Shown here one piece after another: positions 1 to 63,722 of a DNA stretch of 64,000 bases (positions are counted from its first letter, which is position 1; each line of letters begins with the position of its first letter). Under the pieces are notes generated by a model. The model did no database searches. It saw only the letters and a list, made by a program, of their open reading frames with translations, and was not told the origin of the DNA. This stretch comes from a virus. The DNA lies in IMG/VR virus record IMGVR_UViG_3300036770_008702, positions 19,952 to 83,951 of that record; one strand, written 5' to 3'. A program made the translations under genes and the position numbers.

Positions 1-2783
1 TTGGCGGGTCTTAGGTTGGCAGCAGCATCGAAAAGGGTCCCGGCGAGTTGACCTCCTGGCTCGTTCAGCGCAGCATTGCCGACATCATCGTCGGAAGTAA
101 CGACATTCAGGTCTTCCGGAGGTGCTCGATAGGCTAAGGAGGCCAGCCGATCCCAGATCTGAATAAACGCGCTTGATGCATGGGCGGTTGCGTCTAATTT
201 CTCACGCATTCTTTGGAGCCAGGACGTAGCTGCCGGCAAGAACGATAGAAGAACCTCTTCAGGAATGCGCATCAGATTCGCAGCGATCCGCTGCGAAAGA
301 AAGTCAACATCCGCCCCTGTGGCTTCCCAGAAAAACTCCTTCCAACGCTCTGGGTCCCAATGATGCTCCGCGGCGGAAGCCTCGAGTCCATTCAACGCGC
401 GTGCCGGGTCCGATGCGCATAGGGCGCGCCAGATGTCACTGCTTTCAAATGGATGCTCCCTCTGGAGTCGCCCCGCGACAGAAACTAGTTCAGGTTCTGA
501 GACCCCAGAAAGGACTGAAGGATCGCCTCGCAATCCCCAACTGCTAGTCATCCAATAGCTGAAGTCGTCACGATCACCCGCCCCGGCGATCCAGTCCGGA
601 TGTCGTTGCTTTATTTTCTCGAGCGCCTCCCGGCCGTTTCCATCCAAAATGCCACCAGCACCCTTGATGCGCGCAAGTCGCTTGAATGTGGCTCTGTCCC
701 GTACTGCTTGCCATTCGTCTGGATCAGCGATCGCCTCCTCTCGATACATCGCACTTGGAGGCCCATCAACGAGCCGCAGTACTAAGTTCACGTGCGCCGT
801 GGTTGAAAATTGATTCCACCGCTCCGCCATCAAACGCATCGTTTCGCGGCGAAGGCTGAGTGACCAAAACTCGGTATCTTTGAGGTCAAGAAGTCCATCC
901 GCTGCCTCATCGGCTGTATATGCGACGTGATTGACCAAGGCATGGAGGTGCAGGCGCTGGAACAGTGCGTACTTCGACGAGCTCCATTGTTGAGCATGAG
1001 ATCGCGCGTCTGTCGGTGCTAGCGCAACAAGTCGCGTCCAAACCTCGGCAATCAGCCGCACCAAGGGAAGAAAGCCCCCGCGATGCCGGTTTTGATCGTG
1101 CTCGGCAATTGACGGTACATCACCTGACGATCTGTCATACGGTTCAACAAAGCCAGCGTCTCGAGCCTGATCGAGCGCTGCATCCAAACTCCGACATAGC
1201 GTTCGCAACAGACCCTCGACTAATTCTGCGTCCTCCGGCAGAACATCGATGACTTCTTGCATTCTTGGTGGGTGTGAGACTTCGAAATCCACCTCGATCA
1301 GCGATCGCGCGGTGACTGTGTCCGCTTCGCGTTGCTCAGTGTACGGCCATTTGACAGGGCGGCGAACATGCAGCATCGGCCGGAAGAGTTCGGCTACAGC
1401 GGATCGAAACCCGAACTCGTCTTCGACAGCAGTTGATTTATTCAGCAAAAGAATTGAGCGGTGTCGCCAGGAGGGTTGTTGGTTCCGCCGCGCCCAGATG
1501 ATCCATCGCCATGCTGTCCTGTATTCCGCAGGTGGGAGGTGTTCCTTTCGACCCAGCGCCCACTCGACTGTCTCCCAAGTTTGCTCGCTTACGGGCTCTG
1601 ATGCGCAGTTCCGGACCATCTCGGGATCGCCGAGGCGACTTACAATCCAACTACTTGCTGTGATTCTCCCATCAGCAAAAACGCCGCGTTCTCGGAGTTT
1701 GGGCAGCCATTGTGCGGACGGTGAAATTACACCGAGGAGCCGGTCGGCGTCTCCGTGCCTCAGGAGAGCTACGATTTCCCCGAGATCGAACTCGCTGACC
1801 GATGCCGGATCGGAGGATAGGAAGGCGGTCAGGCGCTCCTTTCGCCAGGAGGTCGGATCCTCGGCGTAGCGGGCCCACTCGCGGATCGTCCGATACAACG
1901 GAAGATGACTGCCCTGCGCATCCTTTTGGTACAGGACCGGTTCAATACCCTTGGCACGCCAAAGCGCTTCTTCATGAAGACCCTTGGCCGCATCTCCCGC
2001 TGCGAAGGCGTATACGGGTTTCAAGTCGGGAAAGCGCTCACGATCGGCCTCAAGGGCCTCAAGCAGATATCGCATCGGCGGGTCGTCAGCCGAGTACCCG
2101 ACAAGAACTAGGGTATGAGTTCTGAAGACATCATAGAGGTAACGCGACGCCCATCCGCTGCGAAGATAAGCGTCACCGAACTCGGCGCTCGTCAATACAA
2201 GGTCAGTGTCGTCTAGATCGAGTGTTGTGTCCGCAAGGCGACCATGCAGATGCAGAACGCCATTGAACCGTCCATCCTTAGGCTGAGGCATTGCTTGACA
2301 TGCATGAGAAGCGATTGAAGTCGTCTTGGCGAATTTCCATGCGCGTTCAAACAGCGTGTCGAAATTGGTGGTGAGTATCCGATTACGGTGTTCGGCGTCC
2401 CTTGATAGCTCAAGAAGCATGAGGTGGTCAGTCAGATCCGCATCATTTTTGGGCGCCAAACTGTTTCGTACTGCGTCTCGAATACGCCCGCGCCAGGACT
2501 GAGAGCTTCGGCTACCTTGGCCAACGAGACGACGTTCCAGCGCGCGCAGTAGTCTGTCGTATTGCCCGCTAAGGCTACCTCCATCGCGCATAATCTCGTT
2601 CTCAGCCGGGTGTACCTCCCAGCGCTCCCCGAGGTGCTGGTAGATCCGTTCAACTAGACCACGGAAAAGCGGCAGCCCGGCATTAAGTGAAACGCCTGCG
2701 CCACACACGAACAGCACTTCTCCCCGTTCCTGAGCTCGAACCAGTTCGTCCGGGAGGTTGGGGCCATCATCAACTAGGCGCAT
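1..2783 (-). CDS. SIR2-domain defence-type protein, C-terminus cut by window edge
   Basis: The minus-strand frame is open without a stop from 2783 to the left edge (927 codons), so the gene continues outside the window. The N-terminal ~270 residues are a SIR2-like NAD-binding domain: FVCGAGVSLNAGLP (residues 25-38), TTNFD (N140), HLHG (H180) and a VLVGYSADD segment. These hold the glycine-rich loop and the Asn/His pair that catalyse NAD hydrolysis in defence sirtuins. The long remainder has no motif I can name; size and layout suit the SIR2/DUF4020 or DSR class. Start 2783 has AAGG at about -11; in-frame ATGs at 2798, 2819 and 2867 are alternatives. It is divergent from a type I R-M operon, which suggests NAD-depleting abortive infection. 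That role is inferred. Confidence 0.85.
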   Translation of the reverse strand, partial: MRLVDDGPNLPDELVRAQERGEVLFVCGAGVSLNAGLPLFRGLVERIYQHLGERWEVHPAENEIMRDGGSLSGQYDRLLRALERRLVGQGSRSSQSWRGRIRDAVRNSLAPKNDADLTDHLMLLELSRDAEHRNRILTTNFDTLFERAWKFAKTTSIASHACQAMPQPKDGRFNGVLHLHGRLADTTLDLDDTDLVLTSAEFGDAYLRSGWASRYLYDVFRTHTLVLVGYSADDPPMRYLLEALEADRERFPDLKPVYAFAAGDAAKGLHEEALWRAKGIEPVLYQKDAQGSHLPLYRTIREWARYAEDPTSWRKERLTAFLSSDPASVSEFDLGEIVALLRHGDADRLLGVISPSAQWLPKLRERGVFADGRITASSWIVSRLGDPEMVRNCASEPVSEQTWETVEWALGRKEHLPPAEYRTAWRWIIWARRNQQPSWRHRSILLLNKSTAVEDEFGFRSAVAELFRPMLHVRRPVKWPYTEQREADTVTARSLIEVDFEVSHPPRMQEVIDVLPEDAELVEGLLRTLCRSLDAALDQARDAGFVEPYDRSSGDVPSIAEHDQNRHRGGFLPLVRLIAEVWTRLVALAPTDARSHAQQWSSSKYALFQRLHLHALVNHVAYTADEAADGLLDLKDTEFWSLSLRRETMRLMAERWNQFSTTAHVNLVLRLVDGPPSAMYREEAIADPDEWQAVRDRATFKRLARIKGAGGILDGNGREALEKIKQRHPDWIAGAGDRDDFSYWMTSSWGLRGDPSVLSGVSEPELVSVAGRLQREHPFESSDIWRALCASDPARALNGLEASAAEHHWDPERWKEFFWEATGADVDFLSQRIAANLMRIPEEVLLSFLPAATSWLQRMREKLDATAHASSAFIQIWDRLASLAYRAPPEDLNVVTSDDDVGNAALNEPGGQLAGTLFDAAANLRPA

Positions 2784-3055
2784 TGCCTTACCTTGCATCA
2801 GTGGCCGGGCGGGGATCATTGTCGCCAGCGACTGTGGATTACGACACTGGCATGGTGAAGTCGACATTGCTGATGACTTTCTAACATGCAGTGCCGCGCG
2901 GAACGCGTCCGAACCGCCAAGCCGCCTCGCAACCTCATGCACATGGATGAGCGCAGCCTTGTGCCAACACGTCGGTTCGGCAACCATGCTCGCGTCCAGA
3001 GATGGCCCGCAGAAGCTGAGCCTCTCCCCAGATTGCTACAAGGAATCCGCCTTTT
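2784..3055. promoter_or_regulatory. Divergent intergenic region between SIR2 gene and hsdM
   Basis: This 272-base gap separates two outward-facing defence genes, so it should carry both promoters. The SIR2 frame stays open some way into it, so part may be coding if a more upstream ATG is used. An AAGGA element lies about 12 bases before hsdM. I see no clear operator or -35/-10 pair. Confidence 0.4.
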
Positions 3056-4858
<1,803 letters not shown>

Positions 4859-4940
4859 GTATACCCATCCGTCACAGGTGCCACGCTCAATTCGCTTTGC
4901 TTCGCGCGAGGAGAACTATCGTCCTCGAAGGGGCGCGGTG

Positions 4941-6110
4941 ATGTCTGTCTACCCGATCAGACCTCTTGGCGAGATCGTCGAGAACCTCGACGCGCAACGC
5001 CGGCCGGTCAAGAGTTCAGAGCGAAGGCCAGGCCCATATCCCTATTTCGGCGCGCAAGGCATTGTGGACCATGTAGATGGTTTCCTTTTCGATGGGGAGT
5101 TCGTCCTGGTTGCCGAAGACGGTGAAAATCTGCGATCGCGCAACCAGCCCATCGCGTTGATGGCGCGTGGCCGCTTCTGGGTGAACAACCACGCTCATAT
5201 CCTGCGCGGCACTTGGTCTGCGAATACCCGCTTTTTGTTCTATGCCCTCAACCACGCTGACATTTCAGGCTATGTAACAGGCTCGACCATACCGAAGCTT
5301 TCCCAGGGCAACCTGAACCGCATACTGGTTCCCTGTCCGTCAATCGACGAGCAGCGCGCAATCGTCGCTATCCTCGGCGCACTCGACGACAAGATCGACC
5401 TGAACCGCCGGATGAACCAGACGCTGGAGGCGATGGCCCGCGCCATCTTCCAGGACTGGTTCGTCACCTTCGGCCCCACCCGCGCCAAGCAGGAAGGCCG
5501 CCCCCCCTACCTCGCCCCCGACCTCTGGTCCCTCTTCCCCAACCGCCTCGACGACGACGGCAAGCCGGCGGGGTGGCAGGTCCGAAAGGTGGTGGATGTT
5601 CTCGATCTCGCCTATGGCAAGGCGTTACCATCCCCGGATCGCACACCCGGCCCTATTCCTGTCTACGGATCAGGCGGCATTACAGGACACCACGATACGG
5701 CATTGGTTGATGGACCTGGTGTGATCGTTGGCCGCAAAGGCACAGTTGGCAGTTTGTATTGGGAAGACCATCCATTTTATCCGATTGATACGGTGTTCTA
5801 TGTTGTCCCCCGAACCTCGATGGCATTCTGTTTCTACTTACTGCGAACACTCGGGCTCGAAGGCATGAACACCGATGCGGCCGTCCCTGGCCTCAACAGG
5901 AACAACGTGTATCGGCTGCCGGTTCCGTGGGCGCCGGAGGAGGTGCGGCAGGTATTTGACTCGGTCGTGATGCCGCTCCGCGCAAAGATTTCAGCGAATG
6001 ACGCAGAGGCCCGCACCCTCGCCGCCACCCGCGACCTCCTGTTGCCAAAACTCATGTCCGGCGAACTCCGCGTGAAGGAGGCCGAGCGTCTGGCGGAGGC
6101 GGCCCTGTGA
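4941..6110 (+). CDS. hsdS: Type I restriction-modification specificity subunit HsdS
   Basis: DNA-recognition subunit that directs HsdM and HsdR to a bipartite target. Two target-recognition domains are visible (about residues 1-165 and 205-375). Each is followed by a conserved helical spacer: DEQRAIVAILGALDDKIDLNRRMNQ-like after the first and a shorter one after the second. I chose the ATG at 4941 because GAAGGGG lies 8-14 bases upstream. An in-frame ATG at 4878 would add 21 residues without similarity to the family. The gene lies 82 bases after hsdM and its stop overlaps the GTG of the next gene. The target sequence cannot be predicted from the protein. Confidence 0.93.
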   Translation: MSVYPIRPLGEIVENLDAQRRPVKSSERRPGPYPYFGAQGIVDHVDGFLFDGEFVLVAEDGENLRSRNQPIALMARGRFWVNNHAHILRGTWSANTRFLFYALNHADISGYVTGSTIPKLSQGNLNRILVPCPSIDEQRAIVAILGALDDKIDLNRRMNQTLEAMARAIFQDWFVTFGPTRAKQEGRPPYLAPDLWSLFPNRLDDDGKPAGWQVRKVVDVLDLAYGKALPSPDRTPGPIPVYGSGGITGHHDTALVDGPGVIVGRKGTVGSLYWEDHPFYPIDTVFYVVPRTSMAFCFYLLRTLGLEGMNTDAAVPGLNRNNVYRLPVPWAPEEVRQVFDSVVMPLRAKISANDAEARTLAATRDLLLPKLMSGELRVKEAERLAEAAL

Positions 6111-7135
6111 GCTACTCACCGAAGGGCGAACTCATTCTTTACCGCACCGAGGACGGCCGAACCACGATCCAGCTTCGCGCGGTCGATGGCACCGCCTGGT
6201 TGACACAGGCGGACATCGCCGCCCTGTTCGACACCACCAAGCAGAATGTCAGCCTGCACCTTAAAAACATCTTTTCCGACAAAGAGTTGGACCCTACCGC
6301 AGTTGTCAAGGAATCCTTGACAACTGCCGCCGACGGCAAGGCCTACCCGACCCAGCACTACAACCTCGACGCCATCCTCGCGGTTGGCTACCGCGTGCGC
6401 TCGCCCCGCGGCAGCCAGTTTCGCCGCTGGGCGACCACCGTGCTGCGCGAATACCTGGTGAAGGGCTTCTCCCTCAACGACGAGCGACTCAAGGACCCCG
6501 CCGCCACGGACTACTTCGACGAGCTGCTGGCGCGCATCCGCGATATCCGCGCCTCGGAGAAGCGTTTCTACCAGAAGGTCCGCGACCTCTTCAAAGCCAC
6601 CAGCGTGGACTACGACGGCACCGACGACGCCGCCAAAACGTTCTTCGCCACCATCCAGAACAAGCTCGTCTTCGCCGTCACCGGCCGGACCGCGGCGGAG
6701 CTGATCGTGGAGCGGGCCGATCCGACCAAACCCAACATGGCGCTCACCAGTTGGAAAGGGCCGACGGTCCGCAAAGGCGATGTCACCATCTCGAAGAACT
6801 ATCTCAACGCCGAGGAGATCGAATCCCTCAACCGCCTGACCACGATGTTTCTGGACTTCGCCGACGAGCGCGCCCGCCGTCGGCGTGAAACCCGCATGGC
6901 CGACTGGCTGGCCCAGACCGATCGCTTCCTCGCATTCAACGAACGTGACGTCCTGCGCAACGCCGGCAGCATCTCGCATGATCGGATGGAAGCAATTGCC
7001 CATGGCCGCTTCGAAACCTTCGACGCCAACCGCCGCGCCTCCGAACTGGCCGCCGCGGAAGAGGAAGCCGCGGCCGAGATGAACCAACTGGAGCAGGAGG
7101 CGCAGCGACTTCGGCGCCCGCGCAAGCCAAAGTGA
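6107..7135 (+). CDS. RhuM-family protein encoded inside the hsd operon
   Basis: Member of the RhuM (virulence protein RhuM) family, with the N-terminal signature [25 protein letters not shown] and a [16 protein letters not shown] block. The first ~110 residues form a KilA-N/Bro-like DNA-binding region. The C-terminal half is mostly helical and ends in a charged coiled-coil-like stretch ([16 protein letters not shown]). It starts with GTG overlapping the hsdS stop by 4 bases and overlaps hsdR the same way, so translation is probably coupled. RhuM genes recur in type I R-M loci, but their job there is not established. A regulatory or accessory defence role is inferred. Confidence 0.9.
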
Positions 7136-10100
7136 CCGGTATCGCGGAAAGTCATGTGGAGGAAGCGGCGCTGCATTGGCTCGCCGAGCTTGGCTACGCC
7201 GTCGCCGCTGGCCCCGACATCGGCCCGGACGGCGCGCGGCCCGAGCGAGCTACCCATGGCGACACTCTCCTCCTCGGTCGCCTGCGCGCCGCCATCGCCC
7301 GGCTGAACCCCGGACTTGCGCCGGAGGTCCGGGCGGCCGTGCTGGCGAAGGTCACCCAAACGGAAACCCCGTCGCTGATCGAAGAGAACCGCCGCCTCCA
7401 TCGCTATCTGGTGGAAGGCGTGCCGGTGGAGGTGCGCCGGCCGGACGGCAGCATCGGGGGCGAACTCGCCCGCCTGATCGACCTCACCGACGTCGCGGCC
7501 AACGACTGGCTGGCGGTGAACCAGTTCACGGTCATCGAGAACAAGGCCAACCGTCGGCCCGATGTGGTGGTACTGGTCAACGGTTTGCCGCTCGGCGTGA
7601 TCGAGTTGAAGAACCCCGGCGAACAGAACGCCACCCTCGACGGTGCCTTCAACCAGTTGCAGACCTACAAGGCCCAGATCACCTCCCTTTTCCGCGCCAA
7701 CGTCGCCCTGGTGATCTCCGACGGCATCGCCGCCCGCATCGGCTCGCTCACCGCGGACCGAGAACGCTTCATGCCCTGGCGCACCATCACCGGCGACGAC
7801 CTGGCGCCCAAGAGCGCGCCGGAACTGGAGACCCTGCTGAAGGGCGTCTTCGACCGGCAACGCCTGCTGGACCTGATCCGCGACTTCCTCGTCTTCGGCG
7901 GCTCCGGCAGTGACACGGTGAAGATCCTGGCCGGCTACCACCAGTTCCACGCCGTGCGCCACGCCGTCGCCCGCACCCTCGCCGCCACCGCCCCGGGGGG
8001 AGACCGCAAGGTGGGGGTCATCTGGCACACCCAGGGCTCCGGCAAGAGCCTGCTGATGGCGTTCTACGCCGGCCAGGTCATCAAGCACCCAGAGATGCAA
8101 AACCCCACGGTCGTGGTGCTGACCGACCGCAACGACCTCGACGAGCAGCTCTTCGGCACCTTCTGCCTGTGCCAGGACCTGCTGCGCCAGTCCCCGCAGC
8201 AGGCTGAGGACCGCGACCACCTGCGCAAGCTGCTCGATCGCCCCTCCGGTGGCGTGATCTTCACCACCCTGCAGAAATTCTCGCCCGAGAGCGGCTCCAC
8301 CGACTACCCGGTGCTGACCGACCGCCGCAACGTGGTGGTGATCGCCGATGAGGCGCACCGCAGCCAATACGGCTTCCGCGCGAAGGTCGCCGCCAGGACG
8401 GGCGAGATTTCCTACGGCTTCGCCAAGTACCTCCGCGACGGGCTGCCCAACGCCTCCTTCATAGGCTTCACCGGCACGCCGATCGAGAAGGACGACGTGA
8501 ACACGCCGGCGGTGTTCGGCAACTACATCGACATCTACGACATCGCCCGCGCCGTGGAGGACGGGGCGACGGTTCCCATATACTACGAGAGCCGCCTGGC
8601 GAGGATCGAACTGGACGAGGACGAGAAGCCGAAGCTCGATGCCGAGATCGAGGACCTGACCGAGGACGAAGCCGAGACCGAGCAAGAACGCCTGAAGCGC
8701 AAATGGGCCAGCGTCGAGGCCCTGGTCGGCGCCGAGAAGCGCCTCGCCCTGGTGGCCGAGGACTTGGTACGCCATTTCGAGGCCCGCATCGCGGCGCTGG
8801 ACGGCAAGGCGATGGTGGTGTGCATGAGCCGCCGCATCTGCGTCGCCCTCTACGACGAAATCATCCGGCTCCGGCCCGCATGGCACAGCGACGATGACGA
8901 TGCGGGCATGGTGAAGGTCGTGATGACCGGAGCGGCTTCCGACCCGCCCTCCTGGCAACCGCATATTGGCAAGCGGCCGAAAGCCCGCCGTGAGGCATTG
9001 GCCAAGCGAGCCAAGAAGGCCTCCGATCCGCTTAAGCTCGTCATCGTCCGCGACATGTGGCTGACGGGTTTCGACGCCCCGAGCATGCATACGATGTATG
9101 TGGACAAGCCGATGAAGGGCCACGGCCTGATGCAGGCCATCGCCCGCGTGAACCGGGTGTTCAAGGACAAGCCGGCCGGCCTGGTGGTGGACTACATCGG
9201 CGTTGCGCAGAACCTGAAGAGCGCCCTGGGGCAGTATTCCGGCGGCGACCGCGACCAGACGGGCATCGATGAGGCCGAAGCGATCCGTGTCCTGGAGGAG
9301 CACTACGAGATCGTCCACGCCATGTTCCGCCCCGACATGGCCGGCGGCTTTGATTACCGGCCCGCCTTGGAGCCTGGGGCGAGCGCACCCGTCCGCCTGG
9401 GCATCATGGCCGGCGCCATCGACTGGGTGCTGACCATGCAGCAGAATGACGCTGCCAAGGAGATCACCGAGGAGGGCAAGAAACGTGCCCATCGTCGGTA
9501 TGCCGACGCGGTGGCGGCCCTCTCCAAGGCATTCGCGCTCGCCTCCGCCAGTGACGAAGCGCGGGCCATCCGCGAGGAGGTGGGGTTCTTCCAGGCGATC
9601 CGGGTCGCCCTGGCCAAGAGCGCGCCTGGCGACGGCAAGAAGAGCACCGCGGAACGCGAGTTCGCCATCCAGCAGCTTGTCAGCCGCGCCGTGGTGTCCA
9701 CCGAGATCGTCGACATCATGAAGGCCGCGGGCCTGGACAGCCCGGACATCTCCATTCTCTCCGACGAATTCCTGGCTGAAGTGCGCGAGATGGAGAAGCG
9801 GAACCTCGCGATCGAGGCACTGAAAAAGCTGATTGCCGGCACCGTGCGTGCCCAGGCCCAGCGCAACGTGACCCAGGCCAAGGGCTTCACCGAACGCCTG
9901 GAAGCCGCGATCGCCCGCTACCACACCAACGCCATCACCACGGCCCAGGTGCTCGAAGAGCTCATCCAGATCGCCAAGGACATCCGCGCCGCCCGTGCCC
10001 GCGGTGAAGAAACCGGACTGTCGGACGAGGAGGTCGCCTTCTACGACGCCTTGGCCGAGAACGAGAGCGCCCGCCAGATGATGGGCGAGCCCGCTCTTCG

Positions 10101-10302
10101 CCTGATCGCCCATGAGCTTGTCACGATCATCAGGGGCAATATGACCGTCGACTGGATGCACCGCGACTCAGCGCGCGCCAACATCCGGCGCCTCGTGAAG
10201 CGCCTGCTGCGCAAGTACGGCTATCCTCCCGACCTCCAAGACGCTGCGGTGCAGAATGTCCTGCAACAGGCCGAGGCGCTGTCGGCAGAGTGGGCGGCAT
10301 GA
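7132..10302 (+). CDS. hsdR: Type I restriction endonuclease subunit HsdR
   Basis: ATP-dependent translocase/nuclease subunit of the type I enzyme. The nuclease core has VIELKNPG (E158, K160 of the D-ExK site). Walker A is QGSGKS (K305), the DEAD-box motif II is DEAH (D406-H409), and [10 protein letters not shown] supplies motif III. The SF2 C-terminal motifs include [15 protein letters not shown] and QAIARVNR. The last ~250 residues are a helical domain that contacts HsdM in this family. At 1056 residues the length is normal. The GTG start overlaps the RhuM gene by 4 bases. All catalytic residues appear intact, so the operon is likely functional. Confidence 0.95.
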
Positions 10303-17776: not shown

Positions 17777-18075
17777 GAGCCGGATCCCGGCGGCGATCAG
17801 CGCGTCAGCGTCGATGTGGGCCGGGAGACTGCCGTCCGGTTGGGTCAGGTACTGCGTGGGTGTGCCTCAGAGGTAGGTGGTGATGCGCGCGTAGCATCGG
17901 CCTTCGCGAGGGCCAAAGAGCGGCCTGCGTACGCCAGACACTCGACGGTCACTCCGAAAAGCCACTCAGTGGCCCCCCTACACGACTACTGGGGACACCA
18001 CCCATCCGCGTCGACAAACTCGACGAAAGCTACCTCAGGCCCGTCAAACTCGCTGCTGCCAAGATCTGGAGCAGA
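17777..18075. other. Stretch with degraded tail-gene sequence
   Basis: About 300 bases with no intact gene. On the minus strand the first ~70 bases keep the coding pattern of the neighbouring tail gene (17402-17776) without a start. A frame ending in ITTYL-stop lies just beyond. The stretch looks like eroded coding DNA. Confidence 0.4.
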
Positions 18076-18303
18076 TTATGAGTCAGTGCCCCATGGCCTG
18101 CAGAAAATTCTACCACATGGGCCAAAGCCGTGCAGTAAACCCAAGTGTGTTAGGCAATCTTTAAGAATTTCACGATTTACATGACGAATTGCGGTAAAAT
18201 TTCCAGATTTTCTGACAAAAACTACATCTTCGTATTCGTACATCTCAGTTTTATTTTGGTCAATATCGTTGAAATTTACGGGAATTATGGCAGAGTACGT
18301 CAT
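18076..18303 (-). CDS. Small hypothetical protein, AT-rich
   Basis: 75 residues beginning MTYSAIIPVNFNDI. CCAGGAG sits about 7 bases before the ATG, a strong ribosome-binding site that supports expression. The product is acidic and tyrosine-rich in the middle (MYEYEDVVFVRKSG) and contains two cysteines near the C-terminus. Its base composition is much more AT-rich than the phage tail genes on either side, as for the orphans at 16246 and 16819. Function is unknown; a phage-carried accessory gene is the simplest reading. Confidence 0.55.
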   Translation of the reverse strand: MTYSAIIPVNFNDIDQNKTEMYEYEDVVFVRKSGNFTAIRHVNREILKDCLTHLGLLHGFGPCGRIFCRPWGTDS

Positions 18304-18488
18304 CTCGAACTCCTGGTTGGTAACTGTGCACCCGTAGCGACGGCCATGGCGTGAGGCGGTGAGCGCGTTGGGCCTATAGAAAGGAGCTTACACGACCACG
18401 GGTGCCTCAATTCAAGATGGTCGTGAGCCCCGCGATCAACCTCGCCGCAATAGCCTAAACTCGCCCCAATCGGCGTCGCCACACATCC

Positions 18489-19057: not shown

Positions 19058-20305
19058 CTAGGGCGCCGTCAGCGTCTGCAGCAGGGCGTTGGACAGCCGG
19101 CGAGGGAAGTACTGGAACGCCCGGCAGGTGGCGTTGGCGAGGGAGGATGCCGAGGGCTCCGACCAAGGGGCCGCGCCGATCGCGATGCGGGCCGGGGTCG
19201 CCGGCAGAGGGCAAAGGGCGTGGCTGCTGACGGTGCCACCATCCAGGCAGAACGCTGCGTCGAAGTTGGCCCAGGCCATCGCCATCCGGAAGGTCACCGC
19301 ATTGGCGAAGCTGAACGGCCGGGTCAGCGCCGCATAGCCAGCGCCACCCGCGCGCGTGTTCAGCACCAGCTGTCCGGTGGTGAAGCGTGACAGGTAGAAG
19401 GTGTCGTTGAAGGTCAGGCCGAAGCCGCCATAGACCAGGGCACTGCCACCGGTCTGCGCCGGCACGATCCGGTTCACATACTCGAAGATCATCGTTCCCT
19501 CGCTGGGGTTGAACCAGCGCGTGTCGACGTCGAGGTAGAGGTTGTCGGCCCCGCGGGTGACCGAGGCGGTCGTAGTCGGGATGTAGCTCGTCGGGTTGGT
19601 CAGCGTGGCCTCCGCCTCGAGCTGTGCACCCCAGGCATAGATGCTGTTGGTGCTGGCGGGCGGGGTGTTGTCGGCCGCGGCGGGTCCGATCGACGCGGCG
19701 ATGGCGGTCACCGTGGTGCTGGTGGCCTCGATCGCGCAGCGATACCAGCCGGCGCCGTGCGCCTCGATGGTCTTGGCGCTGTAGAGCAAGGTACCGGCGC
19801 CGGCGGTGTGGGTCCCGACCGCGCCGCTGACCAGGTTGAACCAGACCTGGATGGTATTGCTGCCGTCGCTCAGTTCCAGCACCGCGAAGCCACTGGCGGC
19901 GGCCTTGAGGAACACCACGAAGGCGATGCCGCGCCCGGCGGTGATGGTGACGGCCTGCGTCAGCTTGCCGCCGCTGGCGGCCGCGGTGAGGGTGTCCGCC
20001 GTCGTGGTGCCATCCGGGGCCATGGTGGCATTCGGCGTGACGGTGAGGTTCGCCGCGGACCAGGGCGCGGTGTCCAGTTCCTCGCTGCGCAACAGCAGGT
20101 TGGTGCGCTGGGGCTCGATCAGCAGCCCCTCGCAGACGCCCGTGACCGGGTGGTGCTGCCAACGCCCGGTGTTGGCCGGCACGGCCCGAATGAGGCCTGT
20201 GCGCCCGACATTGCGGGCGGCCCCGGTGCGGGTGAAGCGGGCGCGCGGGTCGATCAACCCGGGGGCCTTGTGGAACTGCCAGTTGATGGCGGGCTCGACG
20301 GACAT
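19058..20305 (-). CDS. Phage tail fibre / spike-type protein
   Basis: 415 residues beginning MSVEPAINWQFHKAPG. Residues ~50-65 hold GLLIEPQRTNLLL, the segment typical of phage head-spike/fibre domains. It is followed by a galactose-binding-like beta domain and then a concanavalin/LamG-like C-terminal domain with RIAIGAAPWSE. Such proteins bind surface carbohydrate. The gene begins 2 bases after the stop of the preceding tail gene and ends just before the next start, so it is cotranscribed with the tail module. It is probably the receptor-binding fibre. The family call is good; the ligand is unknown. Confidence 0.75.
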   Translation of the reverse strand: MSVEPAINWQFHKAPGLIDPRARFTRTGAARNVGRTGLIRAVPANTGRWQHHPVTGVCEGLLIEPQRTNLLLRSEELDTAPWSAANLTVTPNATMAPDGTTTADTLTAAASGGKLTQAVTITAGRGIAFVVFLKAAASGFAVLELSDGSNTIQVWFNLVSGAVGTHTAGAGTLLYSAKTIEAHGAGWYRCAIEATSTTVTAIAASIGPAAADNTPPASTNSIYAWGAQLEAEATLTNPTSYIPTTTASVTRGADNLYLDVDTRWFNPSEGTMIFEYVNRIVPAQTGGSALVYGGFGLTFNDTFYLSRFTTGQLVLNTRAGGAGYAALTRPFSFANAVTFRMAMAWANFDAAFCLDGGTVSSHALCPLPATPARIAIGAAPWSEPSASSLANATCRAFQYFPRRLSNALLQTLTAP

Positions 20306-61271: not shown

Positions 61272-61490
61272 ATGAATCGCTCCAGCCCGCCCACCACCGG
61301 TCCCCATCTCCCACCGCACCTCCGCGAGGTCTGCGCCATCCTGGCCGCCGGCCTGCTGCGGCTGCGCAGCCGCAGCGCCGAGGAATGTGCCCGTGACGCC
61401 GCGGAGACCGGGGACCACGGAGAGTTTCGCCTACACTACGTGCCCCACCAGCGCGGTCATGCAACCCGGACCAACCGGAGAGACGCATGA
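61272..61490 (+). CDS. Small conserved protein at head of recombinase cassette
   Basis: 72 residues (MNRSSPPTTGPHLPPHLREV). LREVCAILAAGLLRLRSRSA is a conserved helix found in small proteins that precede DUF2924 genes. The stop overlaps the DUF2924 start by 4 bases (ATGA). It opens a cassette of four overlapping plus-strand genes. The 192-base gap before it is the likely promoter region. Function is unknown. Confidence 0.7.
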   Translation: MNRSSPPTTGPHLPPHLREVCAILAAGLLRLRSRSAEECARDAAETGDHGEFRLHYVPHQRGHATRTNRRDA

Positions 61491-61999
61491 CCAGACTGGC
61501 CAAACCCAAGGGCGCCGCGGCCACCGCCGCGCCCACCACGTTCCCCGCCATCCCGCCTGCCGACGTGCTGGGGCGCCTGGCGGCCCTGAAGACCGCGCCC
61601 GCCGCCGAGTTGCAGGCGCAGTGGCGAGAGCTCTTCGGCAAGGAGGCACCGCCGCACAACCGGACCTTCCTGCAGAGTCGACTGGCATACCGGGTGCAGG
61701 AGCTCGCTTACGGCGGGTTGAAGCCCGAGACGCTGCGGCGGCTCGAGGCGTTGGGCGAGCAGCTGGATGGCGGTAACCCGGTGCTGCGGCGGATCCGGGT
61801 CGACGACAAGCCGGTCACCGGCACGAAGCTGGTGCGGAACCACCAGGGGGTCGAGCACACCGTGACCGTGCTGGTCGACGGGTATTCCTGGGAAGGCCGC
61901 CCCTACAAGTCGCTGTCGGCCATCGCGCGCGCCATCACCGGCACGCGCTGGAATGGCTGGACGTTTTTCGGGATTGCGAACCGGCGGGGGTCAGCATGA
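61487..61999 (+). CDS. DUF2924 protein
   Basis: 170 residues (MTRLAKPKGAAATAAPTTFP). Residues ~25-165 form DUF2924, with LQSRLAYRVQELAYGGLKPE, then KLVRNHQGVEHTVTVLVDGY and the terminal ITGTRWNGWTFFGI. In alphaproteobacteria this family sits immediately upstream of large serine recombinase genes, as here, with 4-base overlaps on both sides. It may be a recombination directionality or accessory factor. That role is a guess from its linkage. Confidence 0.9.
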   Translation: MTRLAKPKGAAATAAPTTFPAIPPADVLGRLAALKTAPAAELQAQWRELFGKEAPPHNRTFLQSRLAYRVQELAYGGLKPETLRRLEALGEQLDGGNPVLRRIRVDDKPVTGTKLVRNHQGVEHTVTVLVDGYSWEGRPYKSLSAIARAITGTRWNGWTFFGIANRRGSA

Positions 62000-63345
62000 G
62001 CCGGAAATCTGGACTTCCCGCCGGTGGGAAGTCGACGGCAGCACCGCCTGTCCGTAAGGTCCGCTGCGCCGTCTACACCCGAAAATCCACAGACGAGGGG
62101 CTGGAGAAGGAATTCAACAGCCTGGACGCCCAGCGCGAGTCATGTGAGGCGTACATCGCCAGTCAGCGCACGGAGGGCTGGGTGCTGGTGCCCGACTACT
62201 ACGACGATGGCGGCATCTCCGGTGGCACGCTGGAGCGCCCGGCCCTGCAGCGCCTGCTGCGAGACATCGAGGCCGGCTTGGTCGACGTCGTGGCTGTCAA
62301 CAAGATTGACAGGCTGTCGCGTTCGCTGATGGATTTCGCCAAGCTGGTCGAGACCTTCGACGCCCACAACGTCACCTTCGTTTCGGTCACGCAGTCTTTC
62401 AACACGACGACCAGCATGGGCCGGTTGACGCTGAACATCCTGCTCAGCTTTGCTCAGTACGAACGCGAGATTATTGGCGAGCGGGTGCGCGACAAGATTG
62501 CGGCGTCCAAGGCGCGGGGCATGTGGATGGGTGGGCCAGTCCCGCTTGGCTACGACGTCCGCGACCGCAAGCTGGTAGTGAACGAGGTGGAAGCCGCGAC
62601 GGTGCGGCGCGTGTTCGATGCCTTCGCCACGATCGGTTCCGCCACGCAGCTAGTGCCGGCGCTGCGTGCCGAGGGCCTGCTGACCAAGATGGGGCGGCCG
62701 TTCGACAAGGGGGCGATCTACAAGACGCTGAGCCTTCGTACCTATCTCGGCGTCGTGACGCACCAGGGGAAGGTCTACCCTGGCGAGCACCAGGCGATCG
62801 TGCCGCAGGACCTGTGGGACCGGGCGCACGACATCATGCGGGAGAGCCCGCGCGTCCGCGCCAACGAGGCCCGCCGCCAGACACCGGCGCTGCTCCGCGG
62901 ATTGATCTTCGGGCCGGACGGCAGGGCGCTGTCGCCAACGCACACCCGTCGCAGGGGCAAGCTCTACACCTACTATGTGAGCCAGGCCGTGCTGAAGGGC
63001 ACCGACGACGGCGGTACGGTCCGCCGCATCTCGGCGGGCGAGATCGAGGCCGCAGTGATGGACCAGGTGCGGGCGCTGCTCTGCCAACCGGAGGTGGTGA
63101 TCGGCACGTGGCGCGCCGCGCAGGCCGAGGCGCCAGACCTGACCGCGGCTGAGACGCGCGTGGCACTGGAGCAGCTTGACCCGCTGTGGGACGAGTTGTT
63201 CCCCGCCGAGCAGGCGCGGATCGTGCGGAGCCTGGTCGAGCGTGTGGACATCAGCCCCGCGGGCGCCGACATTCGGTTACGGCTGGATGGCCTGGCCGGC
63301 TTGGTGCGCGATCTGCGGGCATCCCCCGTGCGCGAGGCCGCCTGA
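61996..63345 (+). CDS. Large serine recombinase
   Basis: 449 residues. Catalytic domain: VYTRKSTDEG with nucleophile S31, then LDAQRESCEAYIASQ and NKIDRLSRSLMDFAKLVETF. The recombinase domain follows (GPVPLGYDVRDRKLVVNEVE and FDKGAIYKTLSLRTYLG), then a zinc-ribbon-like and coiled-coil C-terminal region. It catalyses site-specific integration or excision through a Ser-DNA link. The start overlaps the DUF2924 stop by 4 bases. It is the only complete recombinase near the prophage, so it may be the integrase, but the cassette also occurs apart from phages. Confidence 0.93.
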   Translation: MSRKSGLPAGGKSTAAPPVRKVRCAVYTRKSTDEGLEKEFNSLDAQRESCEAYIASQRTEGWVLVPDYYDDGGISGGTLERPALQRLLRDIEAGLVDVVAVNKIDRLSRSLMDFAKLVETFDAHNVTFVSVTQSFNTTTSMGRLTLNILLSFAQYEREIIGERVRDKIAASKARGMWMGGPVPLGYDVRDRKLVVNEVEAATVRRVFDAFATIGSATQLVPALRAEGLLTKMGRPFDKGAIYKTLSLRTYLGVVTHQGKVYPGEHQAIVPQDLWDRAHDIMRESPRVRANEARRQTPALLRGLIFGPDGRALSPTHTRRRGKLYTYYVSQAVLKGTDDGGTVRRISAGEIEAAVMDQVRALLCQPEVVIGTWRAAQAEAPDLTAAETRVALEQLDPLWDELFPAEQARIVRSLVERVDISPAGADIRLRLDGLAGLVRDLRASPVREAA

Positions 63346-63722
63346 TGTCCGTCAGCATCACGGTGCGGGTGCCGGTCACCATCAGGAAGCGCGGCGGGCG
63401 GCGGCTGGTCGTGGCGCCCGATGGCGCACCCTGGTCGGCGCCGCGTGCACGAATCGACAACACGCTGGTCAAGGCATTGGCACGCGCCCACCGGTGGAAG
63501 AAGATGCTGGACGACGGCCGCTACGGGACGGTCACGGAACTGGCGGCGGGGGAGAAGCTGGATCGCGGCTACCTCGGCAAGATCCTGATGCTGACGCTGC
63601 TGGCGCCGGACATCGTGGAGGCGATCCTGGACGGGAGGCAGCCGGCCGAACTCGGGGTCCATGTGCTTCGGGAGGGGTTTCCGGTGGAATGGGGGGAGCA
63701 GAGGGCCAATCTGGTCGCCTGA
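63345..63722 (+). CDS. Helix-turn-helix-type protein after the recombinase
   Basis: 125 residues from ATG 63345 (MSVSITVRVPVTIRKRGGRR), overlapping the recombinase stop by one base. The C-terminal half, VTELAAGEKLDRGYLGKILM and LTLLAPDIVEAILDGRQP, is a helix-turn-helix seen in proteins encoded next to such recombinases. The N-terminal half is basic with strand-like segments. It probably binds DNA and assists the recombinase. The four-gene order matches a conserved cassette. Confidence 0.8.
   Translation: MSVSITVRVPVTIRKRGGRRLVVAPDGAPWSAPRARIDNTLVKALARAHRWKKMLDDGRYGTVTELAAGEKLDRGYLGKILMLTLLAPDIVEAILDGRQPAELGVHVLREGFPVEWGEQRANLVA

Follow-up and report, generated by a model that had tools for sequence, protein, structure and literature searches.

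A complete, divergent Dsr1-family gene on a prophage contig, and relatives probably encoded by two or three genes

The dsr1-like gene and its surroundings

The DNA analyzed here (the window, 64,000 nucleotides) corresponds to positions 19952 to 83951 of the 83,951-base virus record IMGVR_UViG_3300036770_008702 (C1). At its left edge, on the minus strand, positions 3 to 2783 encode residues 1 to 927 of a 1,223-residue dsr1-like product, recognized from the open frame and by the PADLOC and NCBIfam Dsr1 profiles. An earlier sequence-only reading had described a frame of at least 927 codons with no stop in the window, and the frame is indeed uninterrupted from 3 to 2783 and runs past the left edge. 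Extension of the contig to the left, as that reading proposed, gave a clean end: the remaining 296 codons, with the stop, occupy C1:19063-19953 (minus strand), the stop ending at C1:19063, 889 bases outside the window, and neither of the defects it had named as possible objections, a stop or a frameshift just beyond the edge, is present. The gene is intact, and its complete product, read from the window part plus the bases to the left of it in C1, has 1,223 amino acids. The longest mechanical ORF extends to 2987; the ATG at 2783 was chosen as the start because relatives begin at the residue encoded there. AAGGTAAGGCA, with a ribosome-binding-like AAGG, lies upstream of this ATG.

Three modules can be delimited in the product, all on the minus strand. 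The SIR2 NADase module (residues 1 to 325; positions 1809 to 2783) is supported by the SIR2_2 match, the predicted model, and Foldseek, its edge being taken from the split relatives described below. It is followed by a middle helical region without a Pfam domain (residues 326 to 890; positions 114 to 1808), seen in the model and forming its own gene in split relatives. The C-terminal helical module, defined from models and split relatives, starts in the window with residues 891 to 927 (positions 3 to 113) and continues outside it to residue 1223; in the predicted structure, residues 892 to 895 form a low-confidence linker at its start.

A 272-base intergenic region (positions 2784 to 3055) separates dsr1 from a type I restriction-modification (R-M) operon identified by profile searches. 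It comprises, on the plus strand, hsdM (methyltransferase; 3056 to 4858), hsdS (specificity subunit; 4878 to 6110), a RhuM-family gene (PADLOC candidate PDC-S05; 6107 to 7135) that overlaps the genes on both sides by a few bases, and hsdR (restriction subunit; 7132 to 10302). We treat these genes as neighbors and not as part of the Dsr1 system. Since the operon runs on the plus strand from 3056, it is divergent from dsr1; the sequence-only reading was thus right about the adjacency but not about the two facing each other.

C1 carries two related prophages whose serine-recombinase integrase ends (C1:14855-17252 and C1:81254-83651, the latter at window positions 61303 to 63700) are 89% identical. 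A third, truncated copy of the integrase-linked small ORF (phrog_14161) lies at C1:18725-18951, between an IS1380 remnant and dsr1 and 112 bases from the dsr1 stop. The IS1380 transposase remnant itself (C1:17413-18840) is broken by an unrelated 221-aa minus-strand ORF (17786-18451). A phrog_14161-type ORF also lies 149 to 188 bases from dsr1 in Neoroseomonas (L019), Mesorhizobium (L073), and Pseudaminobacter (L075), whose dsr1 genes belong to three different branches of the tree. We surveyed viral contigs (loci L154 to L233) for what flanks the phrog_14161 ORF, taking 69 ORFs on each side. On the outer side, hits were obtained to 244 PADLOC models, among them type I and III R-M, versus 32 on the phage side, none of those listed being matched there by more than one ORF, a difference that the model counts overstate because R-M genes match many models at once; Pfam added BrxA and GmrSD to the outer side. 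Overall, the integrase end of serine-recombinase prophages is likely a defense hotspot. At 57% G+C (51% in its C-terminal part), dsr1 falls below both the prophage (65%) and hsdM (69%), as would fit a recent arrival.

Family assignment, active site, and predicted fold

In the full protein, Pfam detects only SIR2_2 (residues 135 to 282, E 4e-22). The other roughly 900 residues have no Pfam match, in keeping with the earlier remark that the long C-terminal part lacks nameable motifs; it corresponds to a Dsr1-type helical region. The HMM check suggested by that reading was borne out for SIR2_2, found at E 3e-22 in the truncated window part alone (PADLOC Dsr1, E 2e-113), and not for DUF4020, which is absent from the full product by Pfam search. 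PADLOC assigned the full protein to Dsr1 through PDLC02183 (4e-136) and PDLC04167 (5e-126; protein residues 452 to 1217 on model positions 472 to 1238 of 1248). The NCBIfam Dsr1 model NF041818 matched at 3e-170 and 568 bits over residues 1 to 318 and 413 to 1219. This score misses the 1,400-bit equivalog cut-off of NF041818, under which a typical Dsr1 used as a control (L103) reaches 2,051 bits; being so far below the threshold, the protein is therefore a divergent Dsr1-family member outside the narrow equivalog, as judged from the profiles. A whole-length profile match and a SIR2 domain with the catalytic Asn and His, two features expected of the broad Dsr1 family, are both found. No PADLOC Dsr2 model was matched, and a PDB sequence search found DSR2 only at E 0.58. 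The proposal that this is a SIR2-domain defense protein is accordingly supported by full-length homology to Dsr1 and not to deacylase sirtuins, and the non-defense SIR2 homology that could have told against it did not emerge.

The motifs noted earlier are present at exactly the residue numbers given: GAGVS, the NAD-binding loop (residues 28 to 32; positions 2688 to 2702), TTNFD with N140 (codon at 2364 to 2366), and HLHG with H180 (codon at 2244 to 2246), all on the minus strand. N140 and H180 are invariant and are the motif equivalents of DSR2 N133 and H171; in the alignment with KomC, H180 corresponds to H146, which carries the mutation in PDB entry 9xvc. All 61 aligned sequences keep the GxGxS and TTNF motifs and, residue by residue, N140, H180, G28, G30, S32, T138-F141, G229, Y230, and D234. 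In DSR2, NADase activity is lost in the N133A and H171A mutants, and conservation of both residues in DSR1 has been reported (PMC11087589). Identity to the nearest relative is 71% in the SIR2 part versus 42% in the C-terminal module, as expected of an effector compared with a sensor.

The AlphaFold model of residues 1 to 927 has a mean pLDDT of 89.9, mostly above 90 in the SIR2 part, and that of residues 1 to 1200 of a relative has a pLDDT of 90.2; in both, the SIR2 domain leads into a nearly all-helical solenoid. Structural comparison with DSR1 and DSR2, also proposed in the sequence-only reading, could be followed through for DSR2, the best whole-length solved match in Foldseek (E 6e-11 for the window model and 1e-9 for the relative's), while for Dsr1 neither sequence nor fold search found a solved structure. 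TM-scores to DSR2 over the whole chain are low (0.23 to 0.25) because the long solenoid bends differently and cannot be superposed as a single unit, so that the match rests on the order of local structure and on the SIR2 domain. For the SIR2 module, Foldseek returned DSR2, KomC, and ThsA, with a TM-score of 0.72 to KomC normalized by the length of the target (KomC) chain. Foldseek against viral structures gave no match below E 0.005.

Against known systems, the protein shares with Dsr1 (NF041818, PDLC02183/PDLC04167) a single-gene organization, an N-terminal SIR2 NADase domain, a helical sensor region of about 900 residues, and its length (1,223 versus about 1,270 aa), the two being alignable end to end; it differs from the gammaproteobacterial type in overall identity (25 to 27%) and in falling in a separate clade of the tree. 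With DSR2 of Bacillus subtilis (PDB 8WKX, 8WKS, and others) it has in common the catalytic Asn and His motifs and the SIR2, middle, and C-terminal helical parts in the same order on one chain, but sequence identity is about 10%. ThsA of Thoeris and KomC share the SIR2 fold and active-site motifs, whereas the C-terminal part of the window protein is another, helical region, and no Thoeris TIR partner was seen beside dsr1.

Relatives and split forms of Dsr1

Searches of plasmid records gave 73 matches, all below 60% identity and mostly annotated "SIR2 family protein"; annotated phage records contained no relative. A single-protein query returned nothing from genome contigs or viral contigs. With an alignment as query, at least 567 matching stretches were found in one-per-species genomes, the best 80 of which were taken as loci, together with 30 loci on viral contigs. 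The closest relative among the matches listed is from Neoroseomonas alba (52% identity over the whole length), and the window protein pairs with it in the tree (support 99), within a clade of 11 rows that comprises Alphaproteobacteria, Lysobacteraceae, and one myxobacterium. As the tree was built with FastTree and has local support only, its deep placements are provisional. The relatives are carried by plasmids and prophages, and some adjoin TIR, AbiJ, VapBC, or restriction genes. In the Neoroseomonas family group, three loci (L150, L152, and L153) encode shorter proteins, with open frames of 592 to 705 aa, whose similarity to Dsr1 is confined to roughly its first 360 residues; they may combine this SIR2 effector with a different sensor.

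Several relatives seemed to end at about residue 310, and inspection revealed an organized split into separate genes. Three-gene loci were found in Bradyrhizobium elkanii WSM2783 (L068, 8001-11615), Bradyrhizobium sp. DOA9 (L069), B. genosp. SA-3 (L072), Hyphomicrobium CS1BSMeth3 (L077), Tardiphaga P9-11 (L079), Bradyrhizobium LY.8 (L084), and genome G042 (L134). Their genes A (about 310 aa, SIR2), B (about 577 aa, middle), and C (about 318 aa, C-terminal) correspond to positions 1-300, 473-930, and 956-1261 of the Dsr1 model and to residues 1-330, 326-890, and 900-1218 of the window protein, placing the split points at about residues 325 and 895. Genes A and B mostly overlap by ATGA or GTGA, and B and C commonly by 8 bases. 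A two-gene form (L032 and L034) encodes 305 aa (SIR2) and then the remaining 888 aa, the two being separated by an in-frame TGA; L095/L135 resembles it but has a frameshift in gene A. In the tree, the split rows group together in a single clade (support 100), next to rhizobial Dsr1 of the fused type. Within the family to which this clade belongs, a separate middle gene region occurs in 5 of 392 genomes, one of the five being of the frameshifted type.

Assembly error as the cause of the split was considered and rejected, given the seven three-gene loci plus the two-gene loci, the overlapping starts, the long independent frames, and dN/dS values of 0.10 to 0.28 for each of A, B, and C (among L068, L069, and L072). 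DSR1 has been called a single-gene system (PMC10973363), and no paper on a split or operon-encoded defense-associated sirtuin was found in the openly accessible literature surveyed. Taken together, the data indicate that Dsr1 is probably not always one gene: the sister clade of fused rhizobial Dsr1 appears to encode it as two or three genes with mostly 4- or 8-base stop/start overlaps. Should these function as operons, effector and sensor would be separable chains that come together upon infection, and the cut points would serve as working module boundaries for the window protein.

Proposed mechanism and its alternatives

Computation establishes the intact gene, its family, the catalytic residues, the fold class, and the module boundaries. 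Beyond this, we hold with good confidence that the gene encodes a complete, divergent Dsr1 whose SIR2 NADase would be restrained until the helical solenoid binds a phage component, with NAD+ collapse to follow. The N-terminal SIR2 domain (residues 1 to 325) would be the NADase, using N140 and H180, a very probable role that is well supported by homology. The all-helical solenoid, in two modules (residues 326 to 890 and 900 to 1223), would hold the NADase inactive and support oligomerization; binding of a phage component made during infection would switch the enzyme on, and the resulting loss of NAD+ would stop phage replication. Phage sensing is only putatively assigned to the C-terminal part, and NAD+ hydrolysis, a tetrameric state, and activation by a phage structural protein are extrapolated from work on DSR2 and Dsr1. 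DSR1 and DSR2 are NADase effectors (PMC10952713), and DSR2 is reported to be activated by phage tail tube protein (PMC11087589); the Dsr1 trigger is not named in the openly accessible literature surveyed. Since no Dsr1 structure was found, likeness of the sensor to that of DSR2 points only weakly to a tail-tube trigger.

The protein could instead be a SIR2 enzyme joined to a helical scaffold and working outside defense, for example in protein deacylation or ADP-ribosyl transfer; both chemistries occur among SIR2 folds, and the classic SIR2 profile does match the window protein, weakly (E 0.36). The Pfam model that matches is nevertheless SIR2_2, the Dsr1 profiles cover the whole length, the deacylase subfamily model gives only 11 bits where its cut-off is 243, and relatives lie on mobile elements, some in defense neighborhoods, all of which makes this a very improbable reading. 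Somewhat less remote, though still unlikely, is that dsr1 is intact yet silent or non-functional in its present host, a leftover of prophage traffic, as its position next to the IS1380 remnant and the truncated integrase-associated ORF and its low G+C for the contig might suggest. Against this, the product is 52% identical to its nearest relative and yet retains its full length and every catalytic residue, which implies prolonged purifying selection.

The adjoining R-M operon raises the further question of a single coupled defense system, since the two are adjacent and divergent and the 272 bases between them possibly form one promoter region. Of about 120 dsr1 loci, however, only 4 have homologs of hsdM, RhuM, or hsdR within the flanking sequence retrieved, never in the same arrangement, and the disparity in G+C between dsr1 and hsdM indicates that the two were probably acquired apart. 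As the pairing does not recur beside relatives, we rejected this coupling, which we consider highly unlikely, and treat the operon as a separate system.

Read as a complete, divergent Dsr1, the gene adds to the family a full-length member, with a confident model, of a branch that the NCBI equivalog cut-off leaves out. The split relatives, for their part, allow effector and sensor to be expressed and purified on their own and then combined, something difficult to achieve with a single chain of 1,200 residues.
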